Shown here in pieces: positions 9,517-57,713 of a stretch of DNA of 64,000 nucleotides; the stretch's first letter is position 1, and every line of letters begins with the position of its first letter. This DNA is from Pirellulales bacterium (GTDB lineage: Bacteria; Planctomycetota; Planctomycetia; Pirellulales; JACPPG01), in NCBI GenBank assembly GCA_035546535.1, contig DASZWQ010000107.1, positions 1 through 64,000 of the forward strand. The letters run 5' to 3'. Under the pieces are notes generated by a model that saw only the letters and a program-made list of their open reading frames with translations, was not told where the DNA came from and did no database searches. Both the position numbers and the translations under genes were made by a program.

Positions 9517-10128
9517 TTAGTTGCGATCGCGCAGCAGGGCGACGTACATGCGCAGCTCGGCGACTTCCTCGCGCAGCTGCTCGAGCTCGAACCGGACGTT
9601 CGACAGGTCCGACTCGACACCCAAATGCTTGGCCTTCTGCAAATTGATCGTGGCCAACTCGACCCGCGCCTTGAGGAGCGCGATTTCCTCGGCGCTGATC
9701 GTGCCCGAGAACTGCACGTTCGCCGCCTCGGCCTTGCGCAGGGCTTCTTGTTCTTCGCGCAGCTCGGCCTCGGCGCCCGAGACGAAGATATCGCCGTCGT
9801 TGCTCGCGTCGTCGTCGACCAGCTTCACGCGTTCCTGAGCCTCGCGAAGCCCCTCTTGGATGGCCTGGATGACGGTCGGGCGAATCGTATTGGGCAAGCG
9901 GCGGTTGGTTTCTTGATACTTGGCCAGCGTGGCTTCCATCACGCGCACGTAGGCCTTGGCGTAGCGCAGATCGAGGTCTTTTTCGGTTGCCTTCTCCTTG
10001 GCATCATCCTTCGTGCCGCTTTCGCCGGCGCCTTGCTTTTGCTGCGCGGAGAGAGGAGCGGCCCATTGCAAAAACAGGCTGCTGCCAAGGACCAGACCGG
10101 CTACGAAGATCCCTCGTCGATTTCCCAT
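9517..10128 (-). CDS. Exported coiled-coil protein of unknown function
   Basis: A 203-residue protein with a signal peptide (GIFVAGLVLGSSLFLQWAAPLSAQ). After a charged linker comes a long helical region (about residues 50-200) with strong heptad-like Leu/Ala/Glu patterning (VRVMEATLAKYQETNRRL, then LARVELATINLQKAK and VRFELEQLREEVAELRM), so a periplasmic coiled coil is likely. No enzyme motif is present. A GAGG lies about seven bases before the ATG. The family is not recognised. Confidence 0.75.
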   Translation of the reverse strand: MGNRRGIFVAGLVLGSSLFLQWAAPLSAQQKQGAGESGTKDDAKEKATEKDLDLRYAKAYVRVMEATLAKYQETNRRLPNTIRPTVIQAIQEGLREAQERVKLVDDDASNDGDIFVSGAEAELREEQEALRKAEAANVQFSGTISAEEIALLKARVELATINLQKAKHLGVESDLSNVRFELEQLREEVAELRMYVALLRDRN

Positions 10129-10421
10129 GATATCAACCTCGATCCCTTAAAAGTGATGGCAAGTCGCGCGGGGAAACGCGCGCCCTCGGGGGGCACGGAC
10201 CACGCGGAAATATAGCTTCCGATTCAGCCGCCGGCATGGCAACGATTTTGACGCCTGCCCGGGCTGCGTGCGGCCAGTTGCAATCGTTACAGCGTGGGGG
10301 CCGATAAGGGTTTGCCGATCAAAAGCACGTCGGTGGCCCGTTCCCGCGCCAACCGATACAATTCCTCCGTTCTCTCTTTGGATTTCCAATCTGTTGCGTC
10401 GTTTCGCGAGGTTTAACTGCC

Positions 10422-11544
10422 GTGAACAAAGAGCTTGCCGATCGCGCCAAGGGTATTCGCCAGAGGGTCACCCAACTGCGGGACTCTCTTTGACTTTGAC
10501 GCGCGGCAACAGCGCGTCACCGCGATCGAAGCGCAGATGAGCGAGCCGGGCTTCTGGGATAAGCCCGAGGCCGCTCAAGCCACGGTGGCCGAGTTGAAAG
10601 CCGTATCGGCGATCGTGAAGCCGCTGCGCGAGCTGGTGAAAGCGGTCAGCGACCTGGACGTCATGCTGGAACTGGCCGACGAGGACGAAGGCCTGGCAGC
10701 CGAAATTCCGCCGCAGCTCGACCATCTCGAAGCCACGCTCGAAGACCTCGAGCTGAAGGCCCTGCTCAACGGCCCGCACGACCCCAACAACGCCATCCTC
10801 TCGATCAACGCCCGCGACGGCGGCACCGACGCCAACGATTGGGCCGAAATGCTGCTGCGGATGTATCTTCATTGGGCCGAGGACAACGGCTACGAAGTCG
10901 AGCTGCTCGACCGGCAGGATAACGAAGAGGCCGGCATCAACAACGCCTCGGTCATGATCCGCGGGCCGATGGCCTACGGCTATTTGAAGGGCGAGACCGG
11001 CATGCACCGCCTGGTACGGATCAGCCCCTTCAACGCGGAAGGCAAGCGGCAAACCAGCTTCGCGGCGGTCGACGTGTCGCCCGAGGTGGCCGATTCGGTC
11101 GAGATCGAAATTCGCGACGAGGACGTGCGCGAAGACGTCTTTCGCGCTAGCGGCGCCGGCGGCCAGCACGTCAATAAGACGTCGAGCGCGATCCGCCTGA
11201 CGCACATGCCCACCGGCGTGGTCGTGCAATGCCAGCAGGAGCGCAGCCAGCACAAGAATCGCGCGCTTGCGCAGAAAATGCTGCGGGCGAGACTCGCGCG
11301 ACTGGAAGAAGAAAAACGCGAGGCCGAGCAGGCCGCGAAATATCAGAGCCAGGCGAAGACCGGCTTCGGCTCGCAGATTCGCAACTACTTCTTGCACCCG
11401 GATCAGCGGGTGAAGGATTCGCGCACCGGTTACGCCATCGGCAATTTTCAGAGCGTGATGGACGGCAAGATCCAGCCGTTCCTCGATGCGTTTCTGCGCT
11501 GGCGCGCCGGCAAGCCGAGCGAGGACGATCGTGAAAGTTCCTGA
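10422..11544 (+). CDS. prfB: Peptide chain release factor 2 (programmed +1 frameshift)
   Basis: RF2 ends translation at UGA and UAA. The gene is in two frames: a GTG start at 10422 (GAGG ten bases upstream) reads 23 codons to CTT TGA at 10488-10493, then the main frame continues from GAC at 10492. The joined product is 373 residues, the usual RF2 length. The junction reads LRDSL-DFDARQQ, matching the known RF2 junction. The stop-codon recognition tripeptide SPF is at residues 201-203 and the catalytic GGQ at 246-248. Taken as a single frame starting at 10435, the first 20 residues would be nonsense. The next gene begins 14 bases before this one ends. Confidence 0.96.
10479..10494 (+). promoter_or_regulatory. 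prfB +1 recoding site
   Basis: The slippery CTT followed by in-frame TGA and C at 10488-10494 is the canonical RF2 autoregulatory frameshift. Low RF2 slows termination at this UGA and favours the shift. The stimulatory internal Shine-Dalgarno is weak: only GGGA at 10480-10483, five bases before CTT, compared with AGGGGG three bases away in Escherichia coli. Confidence 0.92.
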
Positions 11545-45162: not shown

Positions 45163-47631
45163 ATGGCATCGAACTCCGATTTACCTGACTCGGTCTGGCG
45201 ACTGCTACGACCGACGGGCCTCGCCGGGCTCGGGGTATTCGTCAGCGCGCTGGCGGGCTGCAGCCACCGGACAGCCGATGTGAATTCGGCCGGTTCGAAG
45301 AATGCCGCTCCCGCGGTCGCGCGGGTGGAAGTCATCCCCGCACAGACATCGGCGACCAATCCGGACCTTGCGACGCGCTGCGTTGCTCTGGATGAGGCCA
45401 CATCGCCCCAAGCCGCAAGACTGGGAATCGTCAGCTCGCCCGATGAGAAGCCGCCCGCAACGAAGGCGCCCGCGAGCAAGCCGGTCGTGAGCGCCGCTCG
45501 AAAGCCTGCCGCGCCTGCGAAAAAGAGCGTGGCGGCGCCAAAGGAAAGTCCTCCAGTGGCCGCTCGGCAGAACCGGCCAACAGTGCGTCTCGCGGACAAT
45601 GCGCCCGCCGAAGAGGCGCCTCCGCCGGTCGAGGCGGTTGATCTCTCCAAGCGTGTCGAGACCACGGTCGTGCCTCAGCAAGTCGCGCAACCCGAGCCGG
45701 CCCCCCAGGCAGAGCCTGTTGCTCCGGCGCCGCCGCCGTTGAGCCCGCCGCCGGCATTGAGCATTGCGCTTTCGAACGGTCCGGCGCCGGCCAAGACCTC
45801 GACGGCTCCTGTTCTGCGCGTGGCGAAGGGTCGGCAAGCGCCGGCACCGGTCACGCCAATGCCGACCGATACCGTACCGGCCTCCACCTCACCCGCCTCG
45901 GACGCAGCAAGCGGTCCGTCGGTAGCTGCGGCGTCAAAGCCAGCCACGGCGGTCAAAGATTCGTCCGAAGAAGAGGCGTCGGCGGCAAGCGCGGTGGCGC
46001 TCTCCGAGGCGAAATCGGACAGCGAGCAAGACACAGCGCCGACGACGGACGTTAATGTCCCGCCACGCGAAACTCCGGCCGTGGCTAGAACCCCCGATGT
46101 CGCGCCGCGGCGGCCGCTTCCTCAACATTGGCCGCAGCCGATGTCCCCTTCAGCCCGGGCGCGCGATGCGGCTGGTGATCTTGCGGCGGATCAGGAAACT
46201 GACGCCCGTCCGCCCGCTGCTACGTCCTCGAAGGGCGCTGCGTCGTCGAATGTTGCCGGCCTCACGCCACCAGCTCCTAGAAAACCGTCGGCGGCAAGCG
46301 CGGGACGTGAACAAGCTTCTGCGCCGGTTCCGGCGGTCGTGAGCGCCCCGCAACGGCCGACGGTGGCCGCGGTCGCCAGGCCTAAGGAAGAGTTAACCGC
46401 GGAAGCGGCGCCTGCCGCGGAAACGACCGCTAAGCAGCCGGCGCCGGTGGTGCCGTCGACGGTCGCGCAGAAGCAGGCGGCGGGCCAAAATCCGCCTCCC
46501 GCGGCTGCTGCAGCGATGGCGCCCGTGCCACGGCCCACGCAGCCGGTTGTGCAGTCGCGCGCAGCCGCCGGGCAGATGCCTCCGGTACGTGCCGTGGCGT
46601 CTCCTCCGCCGAGCTCGCCTTCGACGACCACGGCGGCCGAGGCTTCGCAGCAACTGGCGATGATCTCGAACCGTGCCGGCGAGCACATTGAATATGCGTT
46701 CAACCTGGCCGAGCGCGGTGCCCTGTTCTCGGCCGAAGCGGAATTTACGCAGGGGCTGGTGCTGATTGCCCAGGCGCTTGACGCCCAACACCGTACTCAG
46801 GCGCATAGCATGGCGGTCACCGCAGGCTTGCGTGCCTTGCGCGAGGCCGACGACTTCATGCCGCGGGGTGGTCAGACCTTGGTGCACGTCGAGGACGTTA
46901 TTGGTTCGCACAAGACACCGGTGTGGCAGAACGTGCGACCGGAACAAGTTCCACCGCTCGTGGCCATGCAGCGCTATTACGCGTACGCCCAGCAGCAGTT
47001 CACGATCTCGGGCATGAACGTCCCGGCGGCGGCCATGGCGCTGTACGGCCTGGGACGGTTGCAATCGACGTTGGCCGCCGAGGACAGCGTGAAGAAGATG
47101 ACCGCCGGCCCCAAGGCAATGGCGCTGTACCGGGCCACGCTCGACATCGATCCGAACAACTACCTGGCCGCCAACGAGCTCGGCGTGCTCTATGGTCGCT
47201 ATGGCCAGTGGCCCGAGGCCGAGGCATCGTTGCGGCGGAGCATAGCCATCGCGCCGCGCACGGAAAACTGGCACAACCTGGCGGACGTGCTGGAGAGGAT
47301 GGGCAACACGGCGGGCGCCGCGCAGGCTCGCCAGCAGGAGCAACTGGCGAAGAACTCGGGCAACCGACCGGGTTGGCAGACGTCGGCCGATCGTGTTCCG
47401 CTGCGATACGTCGATCCGGAGACGTTCATCAAGGCGTCAGCCGGCGCGGATCCCGATCAATTGGCGACGGTCGAAGCACCCAAGGCCAGCGAGGCCACCG
47501 GCGCGGCAGCCGCTCCCGCGGCGGATGCGAAGACCGCGAAGAAATCGTACGGATGGTTTGGAGACAAGCTGGCCGAAGGAGCGGCGCGCGTATCGCGACC
47601 GGCAAAGCCCGATCCGGAAATGGTGCGCTGA
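45163..47631 (+). CDS. Large TPR lipoprotein of the EPS locus
   Basis: An 822-residue protein. A hydrophobic N-terminus ends in the lipobox LAGC with Cys33, so it is a lipoprotein. Residues 40-490 are Ala/Pro/Val-rich, low complexity, typical of a disordered periplasmic spacer. The C-terminal ~300 residues hold TPR-like helices (AFNLAERGALFSAEAEFTQG, GLGRLQSTLAAEDSVKK, ANELGVLYGRYGQWPEAEASL). In planctomycetal EPS clusters such proteins precede the Wza-like exporter, and a role in assembling or regulating the secretion complex is inferred. It ends 36 bases before the Wza-type gene. Confidence 0.75.
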   Translation: MASNSDLPDSVWRLLRPTGLAGLGVFVSALAGCSHRTADVNSAGSKNAAPAVARVEVIPAQTSATNPDLATRCVALDEATSPQAARLGIVSSPDEKPPATKAPASKPVVSAARKPAAPAKKSVAAPKESPPVAARQNRPTVRLADNAPAEEAPPPVEAVDLSKRVETTVVPQQVAQPEPAPQAEPVAPAPPPLSPPPALSIALSNGPAPAKTSTAPVLRVAKGRQAPAPVTPMPTDTVPASTSPASDAASGPSVAAASKPATAVKDSSEEEASAASAVALSEAKSDSEQDTAPTTDVNVPPRETPAVARTPDVAPRRPLPQHWPQPMSPSARARDAAGDLAADQETDARPPAATSSKGAASSNVAGLTPPAPRKPSAASAGREQASAPVPAVVSAPQRPTVAAVARPKEELTAEAAPAAETTAKQPAPVVPSTVAQKQAAGQNPPPAAAAAMAPVPRPTQPVVQSRAAAGQMPPVRAVASPPPSSPSTTTAAEASQQLAMISNRAGEHIEYAFNLAERGALFSAEAEFTQGLVLIAQALDAQHRTQAHSMAVTAGLRALREADDFMPRGGQTLVHVEDVIGSHKTPVWQNVRPEQVPPLVAMQRYYAYAQQQFTISGMNVPAAAMALYGLGRLQSTLAAEDSVKKMTAGPKAMALYRATLDIDPNNYLAANELGVLYGRYGQWPEAEASLRRSIAIAPRTENWHNLADVLERMGNTAGAAQARQQEQLAKNSGNRPGWQTSADRVPLRYVDPETFIKASAGADPDQLATVEAPKASEATGAAAAPAADAKTAKKSYGWFGDKLAEGAARVSRPAKPDPEMVR

Positions 47632-47667: not shown

Positions 47668-49038
47668 ATGCTCGAAGTGGTCGACGGGAACGGAGTCGAA
47701 GCGCCTGCCGGCAGGAGGTCGCTGCCCACGATGCTGGGCATGGCGATGATCTTGCTGCTTTGCACCGCAACGGCGGCGCACGCGCAGGCGCCGGCCACCG
47801 TGCCTCCCGGGCCGAACACGGTCTCGCCCGATGTGCTTGGCACCCCGTCGTCGCGTCCGCTCCCGAATGGTCCGCCGGCCGACGCCCTGACGGGGCCGGT
47901 CTACGAAGGCAACTCGCCGTCGGAATTTGCGAACTTGCCGGTTGGCCCAGGCGTGGTCGAGGGGATGTGTCCCATGCCCTCGCCGTGGCGCTGCGGCGTG
48001 TACTGTGGAACGAACCAGGGCGCGTGCAGCGCCCAGACTTGGGAGAACTCGCGTCCGATACCCTGGCAAGTCTTTGCGCAGGGCGAGTACATCGGCCCGG
48101 CGCGTATGCGCCACGTGCCCGAATACCGTTTGCGAGTCGCGGATCGGCTGGGCCTGGTCTTTCGGCTGACGACGATACCCAGTGCCGAGCCTTATGAATT
48201 GTCCGTCGGCGACGAGGTGACGATCGAATCGCTCACCAGCGACGACGTGCAGCGCTCGGTGATCATTCAGCCCGACGGCACCGTGACCTTGCGATTGCTG
48301 GGGCAGGTGCAGTTAGCCGGCCGCACGATCGAGGAAGTGCGCCAGGACCTGGACCAGCGCTACAAGAAGTTCCTTCGGGATCCGTCGATCACCGTTACGC
48401 CGATCAAGCTCAATTCCAGGTTGCAGGAGTTGCGGGCCACGGTCGACGCCCGGCAGGGCATCGGCGGTCAACAGCGCGAAGCCCGCGTCACGCCCGAAGG
48501 GACCATCCAGTTGCCCGGTCTTGGTTCGGTGCCGGCGCAAGGTCTGACCATGAACGAGTTGAAGCGCGAAATCGATGTGCGCTATACGCAATTGGTGTCA
48601 GGATTCGAGGTCACGCCAGTCCTGATCGAACGTGCCCCGCGCTACATTTTCGTCGTTGGCGAAGTGAGGCAGCCGGGGCGTTTCGAGCTGACCGGGCCGA
48701 CGACGTTGATGCAGTCGATCGCGATGGCCGGCGGTTGGAACGTGGGCGGTAACGTGAACCACATCGTGGTCTTCCGCCGCGACGAGTGCTGGAACTTGAT
48801 GGCCACGCAACTGACGGTGTGCAAAGCCCTGTTCGGCCACGCTCCCTGCCCGGCCGACGAAATCTGGCTGCGCGATTCGGACGTGGTCGTGGTGCCGAAG
48901 CGGGCGATCCTGGTCGTGGACGACGCGATCAGCCTGATTTTCACCCGCGGCTTGTACGGCGTGGTTCCCTTCAACTTCACGCTGTTCCAGGGGATGACCA
49001 ACGCTGGGCTGCTCAGCCCTGCGAATCCGTCGCACTAA
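47668..49038 (+). CDS. Polysaccharide export protein (Wza/GfcE type)
   Basis: A 456-residue outer-membrane export protein. A signal peptide (MLGMAMILLLCTATAAHAQ) precedes the polysaccharide export (PES) domain (about 170-250: YELSVGDEVTIESL, IIQPDGTVTLRLLGQVQL, RYKKFLRDPSITVTP). One or two SLBB-type beta-grasp units follow (PEGTIQLPGLGSVPAQGLTM, IFVVGEVRQPGRFELTGP). It has no clear lipobox, unlike E. coli Wza. Partner genes for chain length and kinase-like functions lie downstream at 52012 and 53564. Confidence 0.9.
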   Translation: MLEVVDGNGVEAPAGRRSLPTMLGMAMILLLCTATAAHAQAPATVPPGPNTVSPDVLGTPSSRPLPNGPPADALTGPVYEGNSPSEFANLPVGPGVVEGMCPMPSPWRCGVYCGTNQGACSAQTWENSRPIPWQVFAQGEYIGPARMRHVPEYRLRVADRLGLVFRLTTIPSAEPYELSVGDEVTIESLTSDDVQRSVIIQPDGTVTLRLLGQVQLAGRTIEEVRQDLDQRYKKFLRDPSITVTPIKLNSRLQELRATVDARQGIGGQQREARVTPEGTIQLPGLGSVPAQGLTMNELKREIDVRYTQLVSGFEVTPVLIERAPRYIFVVGEVRQPGRFELTGPTTLMQSIAMAGGWNVGGNVNHIVVFRRDECWNLMATQLTVCKALFGHAPCPADEIWLRDSDVVVVPKRAILVVDDAISLIFTRGLYGVVPFNFTLFQGMTNAGLLSPANPSH

Positions 49039-49279: not shown

Positions 49280-49589
49280 GTCGGGGGGCAGACCTCTTAA
49301 TTCTTTTCTAACGGTGACCAATCTCGTGTCACTGCTTCGACATACGTGACTTGGACCCGCTGGGGGAAAGTTACGTGCACGGATAAGCACATCTGATTGC
49401 GAGATTTTCTCGTATTTGCCTATCGACATGGACGCATCGAGGGATAGGATGGCAGTCTCAGTTGGCGAGAGATTGAACGCCGATCCTGCAAGACGTGGCC
49501 GATCGACGGTACGTCACATCCACTTGCAGGGCCCGCCCACGGCGATTGCATCTCCGCATAGGACGAATTGGCATTGGGCAAGCTCGACG

Positions 49590-50366
49590 ATGTCGACGGA
49601 TGCCAGCAGTATGAGACCGGAGCCATATACTCAACCGCGCACTTGGACCGCGCGCCGGCTGGACGTCAATCGCCGTCCCGAGGTGCGCGAGCATTTGCGC
49701 GATGCGCTGAGCTTGCTGCTGCGCGCCTACGATTACGCCAGCGAATTGAACCAAGACGTATGGTCATTCGCCGTGGAAATGCCCGTGCTTTCCTCGGCAC
49801 ATCTGACGACGAGCGACCTGCGCTGGCTGGCGTGCAAGGGATACGTCGATCACGCCTCGGAAATTACCAAGGCCGAAGATCACGAGCGGCATTTCCGCCA
49901 CAACGGCGCGGCGCGGTTTTCGTCCGATACGTGCGTCGTTTTGACCCAATCGGGCGCCGCCCTGGCGCGCGAGGTCTGCGGCGAAAGTCGCGTGCTGACC
50001 GCCACGGAACCGCGCGTAGCGATCTGCCGCGTACCGGCGAGCGAAGATCTGTCGGGCTTACCGAAATGGGACCGCGATCGACGGCAGTTGCGGTTCGACG
50101 GTCAGGTGGTGAAGGAGTTCAAGCTTCCGTCGCCGAATCAAGAGGCGGTGCTGATGGCCTTGGAAGAGGAAGGCTGGCCGGCACGCATCGACGATCCGCT
50201 CAGCCCTTCGCCAAATCTCGATCCGCGGCGCAGGCTGCACGACACGATCAAGGCTTTGAACCGAAATCAGAAGCGCACTTTGCTGCGTTTCATGGGAGAT
50301 GGCAGCGGTGAGGGGATTCGCTGGGAACCGGCGACTTTCAGCGACGACGACGCTGCATCAGACTGA
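49590..50366 (+). CDS. Winged-helix-like hypothetical protein of the EPS locus
   Basis: A 258-residue protein if translated from the ATG at 49590 (a longer frame starts with TTG at 49416, but the added part looks non-coding). Residues 30-130 are helical with a possible helix-turn-helix (SAHLTTSDLRWLACKGYVDH). The C-terminal third, LPSPNQEAVLMALEEEGWPARIDDPL then RLHDTIKALNRNQKRTLLRF, resembles a winged helix. No DNA-binding family is named with confidence. The position between exporter and chain-length genes makes a regulator of the cluster plausible. Confidence 0.6.
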   Translation: MSTDASSMRPEPYTQPRTWTARRLDVNRRPEVREHLRDALSLLLRAYDYASELNQDVWSFAVEMPVLSSAHLTTSDLRWLACKGYVDHASEITKAEDHERHFRHNGAARFSSDTCVVLTQSGAALAREVCGESRVLTATEPRVAICRVPASEDLSGLPKWDRDRRQLRFDGQVVKEFKLPSPNQEAVLMALEEEGWPARIDDPLSPSPNLDPRRRLHDTIKALNRNQKRTLLRFMGDGSGEGIRWEPATFSDDDAASD

Positions 50367-50885
50367 TGCGCGTGCCCCTCGATTTTGCCGCTTAAACCCT
50401 TCACGTCGGTGGGCCGCCTGCCGCGTGTTTTCCATCGCGGCTCGAAGTTTCATCGCTCCGCTTGTTGATGGTTGAGCGATGGCTCTGGCGGGGTGCTGGA
50501 AATAGCCGGCTCGCTGGTCGGAGCACTCTCTTCGCGCCATGTTTTGCCTTCTCATCGCGCGCGATCGCTTTGCACGGCGCGAGCCGCCGAAAAACGTCGC
50601 GCCGCCCAGCGCTTCCCCAGAGCTTCCCCTTACCTCACCTTGGCTGCCGCAGTGCGCGATTTATCTTGGCCCGTAGAGTTAGCAGCAGGGGAAGCTCGCC
50701 TTGGTTGTCGCAAGAAAACCGAGCGGCTCGCGCGTGGCGAGCGACGCTCGCACGCACGAATTCCAGATTTCGCGCCGATCGTCGATCGTTGCCGGTAGCG
50801 TCGGGCAAGCTACCGCGGCGATTTCGTCGAGACGAGTGCGCAGAGCCGGCCCTCTGGTCGATCCCACCGAGTGGAGGCCAGGTTG
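50367..50885 (+). other. 519-base stretch without a convincing gene
   Basis: A long open frame from 50462 runs through this stretch and into the next gene in another frame, but its product is Arg/Ala/Ser-rich and matches the shadow pattern, so it is not annotated. A weak ribosome binding site lies before the GTG at 50871 and the ATG at 50886. Nothing else was seen. Confidence 0.5.
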
Positions 50886-51752
50886 ATGTCGCAATTCGAA
50901 CCGCAAGGGACCGGCTGGCAGCCCAGCCTGCCGGACTTTCGCGATTTCACGCCCGAATCGCCGCCCGTGCAGCAGTTGCTCCAACAGCTTTTCGACGCCG
51001 GCGCGACCGTACCGCCGACCGAACCACGCGTCGATCTCACCGAGTATTTCGTCGATCCCTGGGATCAACTCGGACTGCAATCGTCGTCGGCGCACGCCTG
51101 TTTGGGCTTGCTCGAGTACTTCGAGCGGCGCGCGCATGGCCGGGCCGTGCGACCTTCGCGCATGTTCTTGTATTACAACGCCCGGCGTCTGGCGGGCAGC
51201 ACCGGAGATTCCGGCGGGGACTTGCGCAGCGCGCTGAAGGCGCTTGCGCGCTGCGGCGTTCCTCCCGAGCACCAGTGGCCCTACGACCCGGGGCGCCTGG
51301 ACGTCATGCCCGAGCCGTACCTGTACCACCATGGTGCAGGCTATCGCGGCATGCATTACCTGCGCGTCGATCGGCGGAATCAGCCGGGGAGCGTGACGCT
51401 CACGCGGATCAAGGCGTTCTTGGCGGCGGGGTTTCCGCTGGCCTTTGGCGTGGCTCTGCCCGGTGGCCTGTCACGCAATGGCGTGCTGCCGTATCGCCCG
51501 ACCTTCGAGGTGGTTCGTGGCGGCCAGGCCCTGGTGGCCGTGGGTTACGACGACGTCTGGTTGGACGGATCGCGCGGGGCATTACGGGTGCGAAATTCGT
51601 GGGGCACCGGTTGGGGCGAAAATGGTTACGGCTGGCTCCCTTACGCTTACGTCGAGGAGCAATTGGCCCTGGAATTCTGGACCCTCATCAGCCGTGAATG
51701 GCTCTCCGCCGGCGACTTCGGAATTCCCGAGCTAAGTTTGTGGCGGAATTGA
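50886..51752 (+). CDS. Papain-like (C1) fold protein with lost catalytic Cys and His
   Basis: A 288-residue protein with the C1 peptidase plan. N-terminal DFRDFTPESP and VDLTEYFVDPWDQLGLQSSSAHACLGLLEY align with the usual DQGxLGSCTAHA active-site region, where Gln61 is kept but the nucleophile position is Ser67 (TCG at 51084). C-terminal GGQALVAVGYDD aligns with GGHAxxAVGYDD, so the catalytic His is Gln214 (CAG at 51525). RVRNSWGTGWGENGYGWLPY keeps the Asn (237). It is therefore predicted to be a proteolytically inactive scaffold. The start is the ATG at 50886; a GTG at 50871 is possible. Confidence 0.85.
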   Translation: MSQFEPQGTGWQPSLPDFRDFTPESPPVQQLLQQLFDAGATVPPTEPRVDLTEYFVDPWDQLGLQSSSAHACLGLLEYFERRAHGRAVRPSRMFLYYNARRLAGSTGDSGGDLRSALKALARCGVPPEHQWPYDPGRLDVMPEPYLYHHGAGYRGMHYLRVDRRNQPGSVTLTRIKAFLAAGFPLAFGVALPGGLSRNGVLPYRPTFEVVRGGQALVAVGYDDVWLDGSRGALRVRNSWGTGWGENGYGWLPYAYVEEQLALEFWTLISREWLSAGDFGIPELSLWRN

Positions 51753-52011
51753 GACGCGTGCGTTGCCGACGGGTAAGGCCCGCCGCAGGGACGCACCCTG
51801 TGCGCACTGACGAGCCGCCTGCGGGTGCAGGCCGGCAAATCCCACGCGCATTTGAGGCGCTGAAAAAAGAAATCACGAAAGCGAAAAGATTCCCCCTACC
51901 GTCCACCTAGCTCCCACACATTAGCCGTTGCTTGTGAGGACGAGCGCTCCTTAAATCGCGACTGAGAAGATTGTGTGCTTTGGCGAATTTGCCAACGACA
52001 GAGGATTAACC
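51753..52011. other. Intergenic region before the chain-length gene
   Basis: A 259-base gap between the papain-like gene and the Wzz-like gene. AT content is higher after 51850 (GGCGCTGAAAAAAGAAATC), which could hold a promoter for the downstream half of the EPS locus. A short palindrome TTGGCGAATTTGCCAA lies at 51979-51994, close to the start codon at 52012, and may be an operator. No regulator was linked to it. Confidence 0.4.
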
Positions 52012-53553
52012 ATGCATACTCGTAAAGCGAAACGTTCGACGGCGCGCGACCTGGTCCGCGTCCTCTTCCGCCACAAGCGGCAGATGCTGTGGTTCTTCGC
52101 GACCACCATGGGATTGGTGATCGTGGGACTGATCGTGATGCCGCGCACGTACATGTCGGAAGCGCGACTGTTCGTACGCATGGGTAAAGAAAGCGTCGGG
52201 CTTGATCCCACGGCGGCGATGGGGCAGACCGTGCCCGTCGAACCGTCGCGCGAGAACGAAATCAATTCCGAGCTGGACATCCTGCGCAGCCGCGTGCTGA
52301 TGCAGGACGTGGTCGAGAAGCTGGGCTCGGACGTGATCCTCCGCAGCACGGCCGACGGCAAGCGCACCTGGGCGCAAACGCTGCTGTTGCCGATCAGCAC
52401 CGTGATCTCGTTCGCGACGGAATCCGGCGAAGGGTCCCCCGAAGAGCGGGCCATCCGCAAGTTGGAGAAGTCGATCACGTGCTCGACGGCCCGCAAGTCG
52501 AACGTGATCGTCGTCAAGTGCAAGGCGCGCGATCCGCGGCTGGCGCAGACGATTGCCGACACCTTCGTCAACTCGTACCTGCTGCGGCACGCCAAGGCGA
52601 ACCGCACGTCGGGTTCGCACGATTTCTTCGTGCAGCAATCGACGATCCTGCAGGATCAGCTCGATAAGGCCAACGAAGAACTGCGGGCGGCCAAGAACAA
52701 GGTGGGCCTGCTCTCGATCGACGGTCAGCGCGAAAACATCCAGCAGCAAATCAACACGCTGGAAAGCCGCATGCTGGAGAATAATCGGAACCGCGCCGCC
52801 AGCCACGCCAAGATCAAGGCGCTGAACGAAACCCTGGCCAAGATTCCCGCCCAATTGACCGCCGAAGAGGTGAGCGGGTTGCCGAACGTGGCGGGCGATT
52901 CGATGCGGAACGAGTTGTACAAGCTGCAAATGGAAGAAAACTCGGCCGCCTCGCGTCACACCGACGAGCATCCCGGCCTGAAGGCCATTCGCCGGCAGGT
53001 CGACGAGATGAAGACCATTCTCGCCGAGCAGGAAGCACGGCGCAGCCAGACCACCAAGAAGCTGAACCCGGTCTATCAGGACGCTCAGAAAGACCTGCTC
53101 TTGACCGAGGCGCAACTGGCTTCGGAGGACGCCGAGGCCAAGTCGCTGGAAACGCAAATGGCGGATATCCGCACCCGCTTGACGGAGATGAACGACACCC
53201 AGGAGCGGGTCAACGAACTGGTGCGGAAAACGGAGCTGATCGAAGCGAGCTATCGGCAATACGCTCAGAATCGCGAGCAAGCGCGCATCGACGAAGCTCT
53301 GGAAAGCGATCGGATTTCGAACGTCAACGTCGTTCAACCGCCGAGCTTCGTCGCCAAGCCCGTCAGCCCGAAGAAGGGGTTGACCCTGGCGTGCGGCCTG
53401 ATTCTGGCAACGCTTGGTTCGTTGACCCTGGCTTTCGCGTCGGAACATTTCGATCGGTCGGTGAAGACCGCCGAAGAGGTGGAGCGCGAGTTGGGTGTGC
53501 CCGTCCTGTTGTCCGTCCCGCGTCATTTGCGCAACGAATTCCAACTTAACTGA
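52012..53553 (+). CDS. Wzz/GumC-like polysaccharide chain-length protein
   Basis: A 513-residue protein starting at the ATG at 52012. Two membrane segments, near residues 24-43 (LWFFATTMGLVIVGLIVM) and about 470-490 (LTLACGLILATLGSLTLAF), bracket a periplasmic region with PRTYMSEARLFVR and long coiled coils (LQDQLDKANEELRAAKNKVG, then KSLETQMADIRTRLTEM). The proline-rich VVQPPSFVAKPVSPKKG before TM2 is the family signature. It has no C-terminal kinase, which is encoded by the next gene 10 bases downstream. It controls polymer length or builds the secretion channel with the Wza-type protein. Confidence 0.9.
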   Translation: MHTRKAKRSTARDLVRVLFRHKRQMLWFFATTMGLVIVGLIVMPRTYMSEARLFVRMGKESVGLDPTAAMGQTVPVEPSRENEINSELDILRSRVLMQDVVEKLGSDVILRSTADGKRTWAQTLLLPISTVISFATESGEGSPEERAIRKLEKSITCSTARKSNVIVVKCKARDPRLAQTIADTFVNSYLLRHAKANRTSGSHDFFVQQSTILQDQLDKANEELRAAKNKVGLLSIDGQRENIQQQINTLESRMLENNRNRAASHAKIKALNETLAKIPAQLTAEEVSGLPNVAGDSMRNELYKLQMEENSAASRHTDEHPGLKAIRRQVDEMKTILAEQEARRSQTTKKLNPVYQDAQKDLLLTEAQLASEDAEAKSLETQMADIRTRLTEMNDTQERVNELVRKTELIEASYRQYAQNREQARIDEALESDRISNVNVVQPPSFVAKPVSPKKGLTLACGLILATLGSLTLAFASEHFDRSVKTAEEVERELGVPVLLSVPRHLRNEFQLN

Positions 53554-53563
53554 GAGCCGCGTC

Positions 53564-54250
53564 ATGATTACCGTAACTGAACAATTCGTGCCGCCGCGCC
53601 TGGCCGATCCGCGCATCGCTCCGATCGCCGATCACTACCAGGCGCTCGTCAACCGCCTGTTGCCGCTGGACGCGACCAAGGGAGCGGAACTGCGTTCGAT
53701 CGGCATCACCAGCAGCGGGGTCGCCGAAGGTGTCAGCACGGTGGCCGCCGAATTGGCGCTCACCGCGGCCAGCCTGTCGACGCAGCCCGTGCTACTGTTG
53801 GACATGAACACGACCGACGCCGGCCGTGCGGGTACCTTGCGTGCCTGGCGCCAGCTCGGCATCTTCGACGCCGGCACGGCGACCGATGCCGATACCTCGG
53901 GCATCATTCATTCGCGCTACGAGAACCTGTCTTTGTTGTCGTGCCGCGACGCCGAGCAACTGAAGCCGCTGCCGTTCGATCGGCCGCGCATGGTGCAGTT
54001 GCTGCGCGAGCTGAACGAGGAGTACGGGCTCGTGATCGTCGACCTGCCGCCGGCTACCGACTCGAGCGTGGCCTTGGCCATGGCGGGTTTGCTGGCGGGC
54101 GTGGTGCTGGTCGTCGAGGCCGAGCAGACGCGCTTCGAGTCGGCCCAGCGCGCGACCCGAAGTTTGCAGCAGGCCCAGGCGAACCTGCTGGGAGTGATTC
54201 TCAACAAGCGGCCGCAACACATTCCCGAATGGCTGTACGAACGGCTGTAA
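53564..54250 (+). CDS. BY-kinase-like ATPase with a degenerate Walker A
   Basis: A 228-residue cytoplasmic protein of the CpsD/Wzc-kinase (MinD-like) fold, translated from the ATG at 53564. Walker A should read SxxxGxGKST; here it is SSGVAEGVST, with Val57 (GTC at 53732) in place of the catalytic Lys. Walker A' is VLLLDMNTTDA, Walker B VIVDLPPATD. The C-terminal Tyr cluster of BY-kinases is absent (only one Tyr in PEWLYERL). So ATP use and autophosphorylation are doubtful; it may be a structural partner of the chain-length protein just upstream. Confidence 0.82.
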   Translation: MITVTEQFVPPRLADPRIAPIADHYQALVNRLLPLDATKGAELRSIGITSSGVAEGVSTVAAELALTAASLSTQPVLLLDMNTTDAGRAGTLRAWRQLGIFDAGTATDADTSGIIHSRYENLSLLSCRDAEQLKPLPFDRPRMVQLLRELNEEYGLVIVDLPPATDSSVALAMAGLLAGVVLVVEAEQTRFESAQRATRSLQQAQANLLGVILNKRPQHIPEWLYERL

Positions 54251-54284: not shown

Positions 54285-55418
54285 ATGATCCGTTTATTCA
54301 AGAAAGTGAAGACGTTTCTGCGCGGGGACGCCGGCTCGTCGTCGCTGGAGTTTCTCAACTCCGTCGAACGGATGCGTGGCATTCTCGATCGCGAGCGCAT
54401 GCGCGCCGATCGCGGCAATACGATGTTCACACTGGTGACGTTCACATTTCCCGAGAACGTCGCGGTGGAGGGTCTTGTCGCGCTCGGACGGATCGCGCTG
54501 GAGAGGATTCGCACGACCGATGACGTGGGACTGTTAGGGCCGCACTGCATCGGCGTGGTGCTGCCGGAAACGTCGGCCGGCGGCGCGTGGCGCGTGGCCG
54601 ACGATATTTGCTCGAAGCTGCCGACCATTTGGCCACGGCCGCAATGCGACGTCTACGTTCACCCGGCCGGCCGCAAGCCTTCGTCCGAGGACGACCATGG
54701 GCAACGCGACCAGCGTGGCAACGGTCGCGCCGCGCGCGACGACGGCGAACTGGCCCCTGTGGGTGCCGACGAAGACGACCCGCGGGCGGCGCAAGCCATC
54801 CAGTTCTTCTTCGTGCAACCGATGCCGCGCTGGAAACGCGCGATCGACCTTTTCGGATCGGTGACGGCGCTTGTGATCTTGTCGCCGCTTTTGCTGGTCG
54901 CTGCGGTGGCCATCAAGCTGACGTCGCCCGGCCCGGTGTTCTTCACGCAGATGCGTGGCGGCCTGGGCGGCCGGCCATTCAAGATCTACAAGTTTCGCAC
55001 GATGTGCGTCGACGCCGAGCAGAAGAAGCAATCGCTGCGCAAGTTCAGCGAGCAGAGCGGCCCTGCGTTCAAGATGAAGAACGATCCGCGGATCACGCGG
55101 TTGGGCAGCTTCTTGCGGAAGACGAGCATCGATGAACTGCCGCAGTTGATCAACGTGGTGCTGGGTGACATGTCGCTGGTGGGGCCCAGGCCCTTGCCCT
55201 GCGACGAGTCGGACCGTTGCTTGCCGTGGCAACAGCGCCGGCTGGACGTCACGCCGGGATTGACGTGCATTTGGCAAGTCGAGGGGCGCTCGCGGGTTTC
55301 GTTTGACGATTGGGCTCGCATGGACGTGCGATACATCCAATCGCGGTCGCTAGTCAAGGACGCCAAACTGATCGCCCAGACGCTCCCTGCAGTGGTGCTG
55401 CGCAAGGGGGCCTGCTGA
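54285..55418 (+). CDS. Sugar phosphotransferase with an extra N-terminal domain
   Basis: A 377-residue protein. The C-terminal ~200 residues are a polyprenyl-phosphate sugar-1-phosphate transferase (WbaP/WcaJ, initiating EPS repeat synthesis): membrane helix FGSVTALVILSPLLLVAAVAIKL, FKIYKFRTM, the catalytic RKTSIDELPQLINVVLGDMSLVGPRP, and TPGLTCIWQVEGRS. The N-terminal ~115 residues instead resemble a divergent GGDEF-like alpha/beta domain (FTLVTFTFPENVAVEGLVAL, GPHCIGVVLPETSAGGAWRV), lacking the GGDEF signature. The function of this part is not known. Confidence 0.87.
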   Translation: MIRLFKKVKTFLRGDAGSSSLEFLNSVERMRGILDRERMRADRGNTMFTLVTFTFPENVAVEGLVALGRIALERIRTTDDVGLLGPHCIGVVLPETSAGGAWRVADDICSKLPTIWPRPQCDVYVHPAGRKPSSEDDHGQRDQRGNGRAARDDGELAPVGADEDDPRAAQAIQFFFVQPMPRWKRAIDLFGSVTALVILSPLLLVAAVAIKLTSPGPVFFTQMRGGLGGRPFKIYKFRTMCVDAEQKKQSLRKFSEQSGPAFKMKNDPRITRLGSFLRKTSIDELPQLINVVLGDMSLVGPRPLPCDESDRCLPWQQRRLDVTPGLTCIWQVEGRSRVSFDDWARMDVRYIQSRSLVKDAKLIAQTLPAVVLRKGAC

Positions 55419-55454
55419 TTGGCATCCGCGCCGCGGCCTGATGTGGAGCTGGTA

Positions 55455-57713
55455 ATGAGCGAGAACTCGAAGACCGCGCAGCCGCGGCTCCTCTTGGTTG
55501 CCTTTGAGTGCAGTCCCAAGCATGGCTCGGAATGGGCCAACGGTTGGAATCGTGCGCTGCAAGCCGCTCGCCGCTATGAAACCTGCGTAGTGACCCGCGG
55601 CGACGACCAGGAGCGCGAAATTCGCGAATACCTGGCCAGGCACGGCGCCATCCCGAATCTACGCTTCGAATTCCTCTCCTGTCCCGGCTTCGGCGGCCAC
55701 CCGGTCCACGTGGGCGGGCGGCGCTGGATGGCCTACAGCAAATGGCAGCGCGCCGTTTTCGCGCGGGTTCAGGAACTTCACGCGATCCAACGCTTCGATC
55801 TCTTTCACCAGGTGACCAACACCGGCTTTCGCGAGCCCGGTCACCTGTGGCAGCTCGACGCGCCGTTTGTGTGGGGGCCGATCGGCGGATTGCACAACTA
55901 TCCGTGGCGGTTTCTCGGCGAAGCGGGCTTGCGCGGAGCGGCCACCGAGGGGCTGCGGAACGTGGCCAACACGTTTCAGTTGTATGGCAGCCGCCGCGGT
56001 CGGAAAGCGGCGCGACGCGCCAAGGCCGTGCTGGCGGCGAATTCGACAGGCTGTGAACAGTTTTATCGCGCCCGCGGCGTTCTGCCGCTTGAACTGTTGG
56101 ACGTCGGCATCGCCTCGGTCTCGGACGAGCCGCGACCGATTCGCCCGGCGGGCGAGCCCCTGCACATTCTCTGGTCGGGACAATTTGTTTCCCGCAAGGC
56201 GCTCTCGCTCTTGCTGAAAGCAGTTGCCCAGTTGCCTGGCGACGTCGATTACAAATTGCGTATCGTCGGTGGCGGCCCGCTCGAAGCGCGCTGGAAGCAT
56301 CTGGCCGAACGGCTGGGAGTCGCCCCGAAGATCGATTGGGTCGGCTGGCTGCCCCACGACCAGGCGCGCCGGCAATACGACTGGGCCGACGTCTTCGTCT
56401 TCACCAGCCTGCGCGATAATTCCGGCACCGTGATGTTGGAAGCGATGGCGGCCGGTTTGCCGGTCGTCTGTCTCGATCATCAAGGCGCCCGCGACATCGT
56501 CACAGCCGCGTCCGGCATCAAGATTCCGCCGCACCATCCGCGCCAAGTTGTCGCCGAACTGGCGGCGGCTTTGGTCGAGCTGGCGACCAACGTCCCACGG
56601 CGCGAGCAGCTCGGCGCGGGCGCGCACGAGCGCGCCAAAGATTATTTGTGGGACAACCTGGGCCGACAGACCGCGGTTGCCTATCGAGAAGTCCTGGCCG
56701 ATGCCGCGCACGCACCGCGCAGCGTGAAGCGGCAATCTGCGCCGCCGCGTTCGCAGCGCGTGAAGCTCGCCGCCCGTGAGGCCGCGGTGTGGGCGATTTG
56801 TCGCGCCGCCGCCTGCCAGCAGGCGTTCCACGGACGCCGCCCGGGCAACGACTTCGGTATCCTCACTTATCATCGCGTGACCGATCGCGTGCCCGGTTTT
56901 GCGGCGCCCACGTGGAACATTTCGCCCGCGCGCTTGCGGGAACAACTGGCCGGACTGCTGCGCCGTGGATTCAAGCCTCGGGCGTTGTCCGAGGTGCTCG
57001 AAGCGCGCACAAGCGGCGTCAAACTCCCCGAGGGTGTGTTCGTCGTCACCTTCGACGACGGCTACGAAAACAACTTCACCGATGCGCTGCCGGTGCTGGA
57101 AGAGCTGGGCGTGCCGGCCACGATTTTCCTGGCGACGTCGTTTCTCAATTCCACCTCGCCGTTTCCCTTTGACGACTGGTCGGGGCGCGGTCAGTGGGGC
57201 GTGCCGGTCAGCTCGTGGCGTCCGCTTGAATCCGGGCAATGCCGCAAGCTGCTCGATTCGGGCCTGATCGAATTAGGGACGCACACGCACACCCATCAAC
57301 GATTCTTGCAGCGGATCGATGATTTTCGCGCCGACATGCAAGCCAGCATCGAGCTACTGCACGATGCATTCGGCGTGCGCCGGCCGACGTTCGCGTTTCC
57401 CCATGGGATTCACGATTCGTCGATGCTCGACGTGGTGCGTGACTTAGGTATTCGCGCCGCATTGACGACAGTGCCTGGCTTAATCGACATTTCCTCCGAC
57501 CCGCTCGGCTGGGGGCGTTTCAGCGTGGAGAGCCACGACACGGCTGCCACGCTGGCCGGAAAGTTGGGTGGCTGGTACACCCCGCTCACGCACAGGCTGC
57601 GCAGCCTGGGCCGCTCGCCGGCTCGGAAAACCACCCGATCCTCGATCATCGCCACGGTGCCTGCACCGGAAGTCGAAGCTCCGGTCGAGGAAGCGCTCGT
57701 GGCGTGCGATTGA
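55455..57713 (+). CDS. Fused GT4 glycosyltransferase and polysaccharide deacetylase
   Basis: A 752-residue protein (ATG at 55455; a TTG at 55419 is in the same frame). Residues 1-425 form a GT-B fold glycosyltransferase of family 4: LLLVAFECSPKHGSEWANG, ILWSGQFVSRKALSLLLKAV, and the C-terminal donor motif NSGTVMLEAMAAGLPVVCLDHQG. After a linker of about 50 residues, a NodB-type deacetylase follows: GILTYHRVTD, the metal motif TFDDGYENN (residues 532-540), HTHTHQRF (610-617) and the FAFPHG block. The fusion joins sugar addition and deacetylation. The two halves are usually separate genes. Confidence 0.9.
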   Translation: MSENSKTAQPRLLLVAFECSPKHGSEWANGWNRALQAARRYETCVVTRGDDQEREIREYLARHGAIPNLRFEFLSCPGFGGHPVHVGGRRWMAYSKWQRAVFARVQELHAIQRFDLFHQVTNTGFREPGHLWQLDAPFVWGPIGGLHNYPWRFLGEAGLRGAATEGLRNVANTFQLYGSRRGRKAARRAKAVLAANSTGCEQFYRARGVLPLELLDVGIASVSDEPRPIRPAGEPLHILWSGQFVSRKALSLLLKAVAQLPGDVDYKLRIVGGGPLEARWKHLAERLGVAPKIDWVGWLPHDQARRQYDWADVFVFTSLRDNSGTVMLEAMAAGLPVVCLDHQGARDIVTAASGIKIPPHHPRQVVAELAAALVELATNVPRREQLGAGAHERAKDYLWDNLGRQTAVAYREVLADAAHAPRSVKRQSAPPRSQRVKLAAREAAVWAICRAAACQQAFHGRRPGNDFGILTYHRVTDRVPGFAAPTWNISPARLREQLAGLLRRGFKPRALSEVLEARTSGVKLPEGVFVVTFDDGYENNFTDALPVLEELGVPATIFLATSFLNSTSPFPFDDWSGRGQWGVPVSSWRPLESGQCRKLLDSGLIELGTHTHTHQRFLQRIDDFRADMQASIELLHDAFGVRRPTFAFPHGIHDSSMLDVVRDLGIRAALTTVPGLIDISSDPLGWGRFSVESHDTAATLAGKLGGWYTPLTHRLRSLGRSPARKTTRSSIIATVPAPEVEAPVEEALVACD

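Follow-up and report, generated by a model that had tools for sequence, protein, structure and literature searches.

C1A pseudoproteases are known from eukaryotes. In the scabies mite, the SMIPP-C proteins combine the C1A fold with a change of the catalytic Cys to Ser in all members and of His to Gln in two of them (PMC5956821). In a different fold, iRhom rhomboid pseudoproteases are described as proteins that have a protease fold without catalytic residues and are kept as regulators (PMC3149277). On the bacterial side, the nearest described system is xylellain from Xylella fastidiosa, a short C1A peptidase of solved structure (3OIS). An ancient, class-wide bacterial C1A pseudoprotease was not reported in the literature searched, which covered few subscription journals and is weak evidence of absence, and the matching passages of two surveys of papain-like proteins hold no description of the clade treated here.

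In this study, we analysed a gene for a pseudo-papain (PAP) within the exopolysaccharide (EPS) locus of a Pirellulales bacterium. The window is the whole stretch of DNA under analysis, 64,000 nucleotides of contig DASZWQ010000107.1. We propose with moderate confidence that PAP is an ancient cytoplasmic pseudoprotease, serving as non-catalytic partner or sensor of the predicted double winged-helix protein encoded upstream (HTH, Table 1).

Table 1 Features of the EPS locus around the pseudo-papain gene, in positions of the window
Feature	Position	Strand	Description
TPR protein	45163..47631	+	Upstream of Wza; conserved in same EPS locus type
Wza-type polysaccharide export protein	47668..49038	+	Poly_export, SLBB
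HTH, conserved partner gene	49587..50366	+	Predicted double winged-helix protein; no Pfam/NCBIfam match
GGAGG, ribosome-binding-like site of PAP	50873..50877	+	8 nt upstream of ATG (sequence)
PAP (pseudo-papain)	50886..51752	+	288 aa, xylellain-type C1A fold; Ser67/Gln214 in place of Cys/His; Gln61 and Asn237 kept
Wzz/GNVR chain-length protein	51973..53553	+	Directly downstream of PAP; same order in L069-L076, L193
ParA/AAA-like ATPase (BY-kinase type) of EPS locus	53495..54250	+	Domain search
Bacterial sugar transferase (initiating glycosyltransferase)	54285..55418	+	Domain search

Results

The reading frame of PAP is intact from its ATG to the stop at 51752, and the gene is single copy, with only one match in its own genome. 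In a profile search, the protein scores above the curated cut-off of Pfam PF00112 (Peptidase_C1; 24.4 bits, cut-off 20.7), and its best solved relative is xylellain 3OIS (phmmer against the PDB, E 1.7e-31). From the phmmer alignment with 3OIS and from a MAFFT alignment that took in PAP, members of its order and relatives from other phyla, Ser67 could be placed in the column of the catalytic Cys and Gln214 in that of the catalytic His, while the oxyanion Gln61 and the orienting Asn237 are both in place in the window protein, confirming what the sequence-only reading had claimed. That reading had also considered Cys72 as the real Cys; it lies five columns past the Cys column, in which 26 of 26 compared relatives from other phyla carry Cys, and it varies within the family (V in L073), so that it was rejected as the nucleophile. 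Since the same codons (TCG for Ser67, CAG or CAA for Gln214) occur in the window and in seven close relatives, sequencing error is excluded at both positions. With the fold and the sequence match present and both catalytic residues missing, PAP is, on alignment evidence, a predicted non-peptidase homologue of xylellain-type C1A peptidases.

The structure model, which had been suggested as a check, agrees with this assignment. The AlphaFold2 model of PAP (pLDDT 94) displays a papain fold, and the top Foldseek match is again 3OIS (E 3.9e-19), ahead of further C1 peptidases, e.g. Lpg2622 and procathepsins; cathepsins are matched besides 3OIS. Hydropathy analysis revealed no strongly hydrophobic N-terminal stretch in window PAP or its relatives and, since such a signal stretch is missing, the protein is probably cytoplasmic, as judged by hydropathy only.

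Within the genus, the gene is present in 5/5 genomes, all of which encode Ser/Gln, and the four orthologs are 57–85% identical to window PAP. At the level of the order, 43 of 397 genomes, partly drafts, have a match, and a class-wide sample contributed seven proteins with Ser/Gln that database labels place outside the order. Most dyad-lost relatives carry Ser/Gln, and the others display Ser/Ala, Ser/Thr, Ala/Ala, Thr/Ala, Ala/Met and further pairs; half-retained dyads are found twice, with His accompanied once by Ser and once by Gly. Relatives with Cys/His occur in other phyla (L007–L034) and in other planctomycetes (L137–L146, L199, L201–L204) and are rare in the same order (L085, L100, L101). 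In an unrooted maximum-likelihood tree, built with the catalytic columns removed, a single branch splits 40 dyad-lost from 33 Cys/His proteins (support 96/86, 97% of bootstrap trees), and an earlier tree with 33 lost proteins is concordant (support 94/91). The simplest and most likely reading of this topology would be one loss of the dyad, ahead of the order split or of transfer between orders. Planctomycetes of at least two orders appear to have kept a dyad-lost papain-fold protein, the inactivity and antiquity of which are well supported by these comparisons.

Between window PAP and its counterpart in G003, dN/dS amounts to 0.10, and values of 0.14–0.38 were obtained for wider PAP pairs, in which synonymous sites are near saturation (Nei-Gojobori). 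Conserved inactivation thus coincides with purifying selection, as in a pseudoprotease with a selected function. The earlier suggestion that an inactive protein has been retained as a non-peptidase is strongly supported by this combination of clade-wide loss and purifying selection. Ser67, Gln214 and Gln61 are invariant in 9/9 EPS-locus PAP proteins, and Asn237 is replaced by Ser in four of them; cleft residues drift in dyad-lost lineages other than the EPS subclade. This pattern suggests that the EPS subclade probably uses the cleft and that use of the fold extends to the whole family, with the retained cleft as the likeliest peptide or ligand site.

The conserved partner of PAP is the gene directly upstream, not the EPS machinery, which is the new observation of this study. 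The order has 31 dyad-lost loci with enough flank, and 20 of them (19 from a neighbourhood scan and G393 from coordinates) show a relative of HTH immediately upstream of PAP, either co-directional or divergent; outside the order, one lies beside PAP in 6/7 dyad-lost loci. Since flank lengths differ between loci, these counts are lower bounds. About a third of the dyad-lost loci are without an adjacent HTH gene, and the gene is never adjacent in the Cys/His relatives from other phyla. Given that a multi-megabase genome has one to five copies, we estimate chance adjacency at roughly one in a thousand per locus. The HTH gene is present in 32 of 34 genomes with the dyad-lost form compared with 49 of 360 others (Fisher p ~1e-22, uncorrected for phylogeny), and the family is also found without PAP. 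Over 19 genomes, PAP and HTH distances correlate with 0.81, with a partial r of 0.69 remaining at constant RpoB distance (p 0.0005), so the two proteins diverge together to a degree that species relatedness does not explain. Outside EPS loci the partial correlation is 0.87, four genomes with unlinked genes included, and the groupings in the HTH tree are similar to those of PAP. It should be noted that joint transfer without interaction could also yield such co-inheritance.

For the HTH gene itself, the mechanical reading frame begins with TTG at 49416, and homologs favour a start near 49587. The AlphaFold2 model predicts two winged-helix-like domains with a low-confidence linker between them; neither a Pfam nor an NCBIfam family was found for the protein, nor an NCBIfam name for PAP. 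The best Foldseek matches of the model are MarR proteins with an E value of 0.04, below significance, so that the likeness is suggestive only. A word search revealed no operator-like word common to the intergenic regions. HTH duplicates, in tandem or flanking PAP, were observed in L071 (10595–12615) and L079 (8401–11441). In L085 (9621–10873), a Cys/His relative of the same order has a short HTH-like reading frame upstream; because both frames look disrupted, this locus argues only weakly for the HTH–PAP pair having had an active ancestor.

The gene order in the window is TPR, Wza, HTH, PAP, Wzz, BY-kinase-like ATPase, sugar transferase, glycosyltransferase-deacetylase, flippase-like and GNAT. 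Nine loci from four families (f1, f2, f3, f14), together with L193 outside the order, have PAP immediately before Wzz. In every PAP–Wzz locus the HTH gene comes before PAP, the one exception being G004, in which the contig breaks off. Where EPS loci of this type are without PAP (L148, L154), the HTH gene is still present, and in L148 a PAS-GGDEF gene (9936–10979, minus strand) occupies the slot between HTH and Wzz. Further downstream in the window, a GT4 glycosyltransferase is fused with a polysaccharide deacetylase in one reading frame (55419–57713); the counterpart in L073 is far shorter (~329 aa), and the fusion is thus lineage-specific. Ahead of the sugar transferase domain, a stretch of ~180 residues (54285–54850) without a Pfam match resembles by eye a degenerate GGDEF-type domain.

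The proposed tie to polysaccharide secretion is therefore real for the subclade of the window, but it does not extend to the family, since most dyad-lost relatives sit outside EPS loci. In L086 their neighbours include genes for haem peroxidase, ferritin-like/GSDH and LodA proteins, whereas L097 has tyrosinase, trypsin, nuclease and subtilase genes, L087 those for M28/M36 and PLP decarboxylase, and L088 those for RTX and DUF4394 proteins. In family f13 (L089, L091, L093, L094) an LRR gene follows the dyad-lost gene. Poly_export, Wzz or Wzy_C is found near L077, L080 and L096. With many loci being non-EPS, an EPS-specific role for the whole PAP family could be ruled out. As side observations, M36 peptidase and PLP-decarboxylase genes are common to L097 (144–15788) and L087 (10679–17703), which belong to two families, L097 additionally carrying tyrosinase, nuclease-trypsin fusion and subtilase genes, and the HTH relative of family f13 is located elsewhere, mostly near glycosyltransferase-like genes. 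Among active relatives in other phyla no common theme of neighbours was found; one of them (L009), with a UDP-sugar dehydrogenase gene on either side, resides in a locus that carries Wza/Wzz.

Discussion

We favour a model in which the dyad would have been lost once, before the family spread over at least two planctomycete orders, with the protein subsequently kept by selection. PAP would stay in the cytoplasm, work without catalysis and bind or sense for the adjacent winged-helix protein, so that HTH and PAP would constitute a two-gene control module set before different secreted-product gene sets, which in the lineage of the window would be the EPS locus. PAP is probably an enzyme fold reused for binding or regulation and not a decayed gene. 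From adjacency and co-divergence, we infer physical contact of PAP with HTH, DNA binding of the partner and control of EPS expression. The presence of PAS-GGDEF, another regulatory protein, in the slot between HTH and Wzz of L148 was counted in favour of a regulatory role.

An alternative that we consider a real but minor possibility, and the foremost among the rivals, goes back to the sequence-only reading and assigns PAP to the EPS machinery as a scaffold or adapter, in which the dead cleft would hold on to a peptide tail, from Wzz, from the kinase or from a glycosyltransferase, and so organise EPS assembly. The position directly before Wzz, recurring across four families and once outside the order, the Poly_export, Wzz or Wzy_C genes near L077, L080 and L096 and the three residues fixed in the nine EPS-locus proteins are in line with this idea. 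However, loci of the same EPS type exist without PAP, and most dyad-lost relatives have neighbours of the peroxidase/LodA, tyrosinase/trypsin/subtilase, M36, RTX or LRR kind. Because the conserved neighbour is the upstream winged-helix-like gene and most relatives lie outside EPS loci, a regulatory partnership is preferred, and a scaffold or glycan-binding role inside the EPS machinery is the less likely of the two.

The regulatory partnership can be put more specifically, in a form that we regard as quite unlikely. PAP would be a ligand sensor that kept the small-molecule site of the xylellain family and reports the level of a nucleotide or nucleotide-sugar, or a bound peptide, to the winged-helix regulator; genes for EPS and other secreted products would then be under a switch derived from a peptidase. 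Leite et al. (2013) reportedly observed that xylellain binds a ribonucleotide away from its active site.

It is possible, if distinctly improbable, that PAP is a decoy or regulator of proteases, binding substrates or inhibitors of active peptidases uncut, as proposed for other pseudoproteases. Some lineages have peptidase neighbours (M36, M28, trypsin, subtilase), and scabies-mite SMIPP-C pseudoproteases underwent the same Cys-to-Ser and His-to-Gln change (PMC5956821), but the EPS locus of the window is without a peptidase neighbour, its genome holds a single match of PAP, and the N-terminus is not signal-like. Next in rank, and very improbable in our view, is a retained non-proteolytic chemistry via Ser67 or via His70 and Cys72 as residues that moved to the helix. 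In its favour, the EPS subclade does not vary at Ser67 and Gln214 and commonly has His70, three residues past Ser67, and a relocated His is known from one papain-like transglutaminase (PMC10318531). Against this, neither His70 nor Cys72 is constant within the EPS subclade itself, L074 having Q and L073 V, the orienting Asn is exchanged in four of its nine proteins, and sister lineages carry A/A, T/A and A/M pairs. Recent local inactivation, a pseudogene or an assembly artefact, which nothing favours beyond the substitutions themselves, is refuted by the Ser/Gln orthologs of 57–85% identity, a dyad loss that is clade-wide and on one branch, intact frames and dN/dS of ~0.1, and retains a negligible probability.

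For the preferred model of a regulatory partnership, the pairing with a winged-helix-like family provides PAP with a concrete, testable partner. If it is true, a bacterial peptidase fold would have been turned into a regulator, offering a handle on the control of EPS in planctomycetes.

Comparison with known systems

The HTH model has its top fold matches among MarR-type winged-helix regulators, from which it differs in that the match is not significant, Pfam/NCBIfam assignment is lacking and a second winged-helix domain is predicted. To iRhoms, PAP displays a functional analogy, whereas fold and membrane location of iRhom differ. The closest likeness is to xylellain, which is matched over PAP residues 7–267 and features a similar N-terminal G-[WY]-x-P-D-x-x-D-x-R-D segment ahead of the catalytic domain; this segment and the overall similarity characterise PAP as a xylellain-type short bacterial C1A protein. 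Xylellain has Cys, His and Asn, whereas the PAP clade lost Cys and His and many members also Asn. With SMIPP-C, PAP shares the identical Ser/Gln pair, although SMIPP-C is eukaryotic, multicopy and close to mite group-1 allergens. Most simply, the two would represent the same end state, reached independently.
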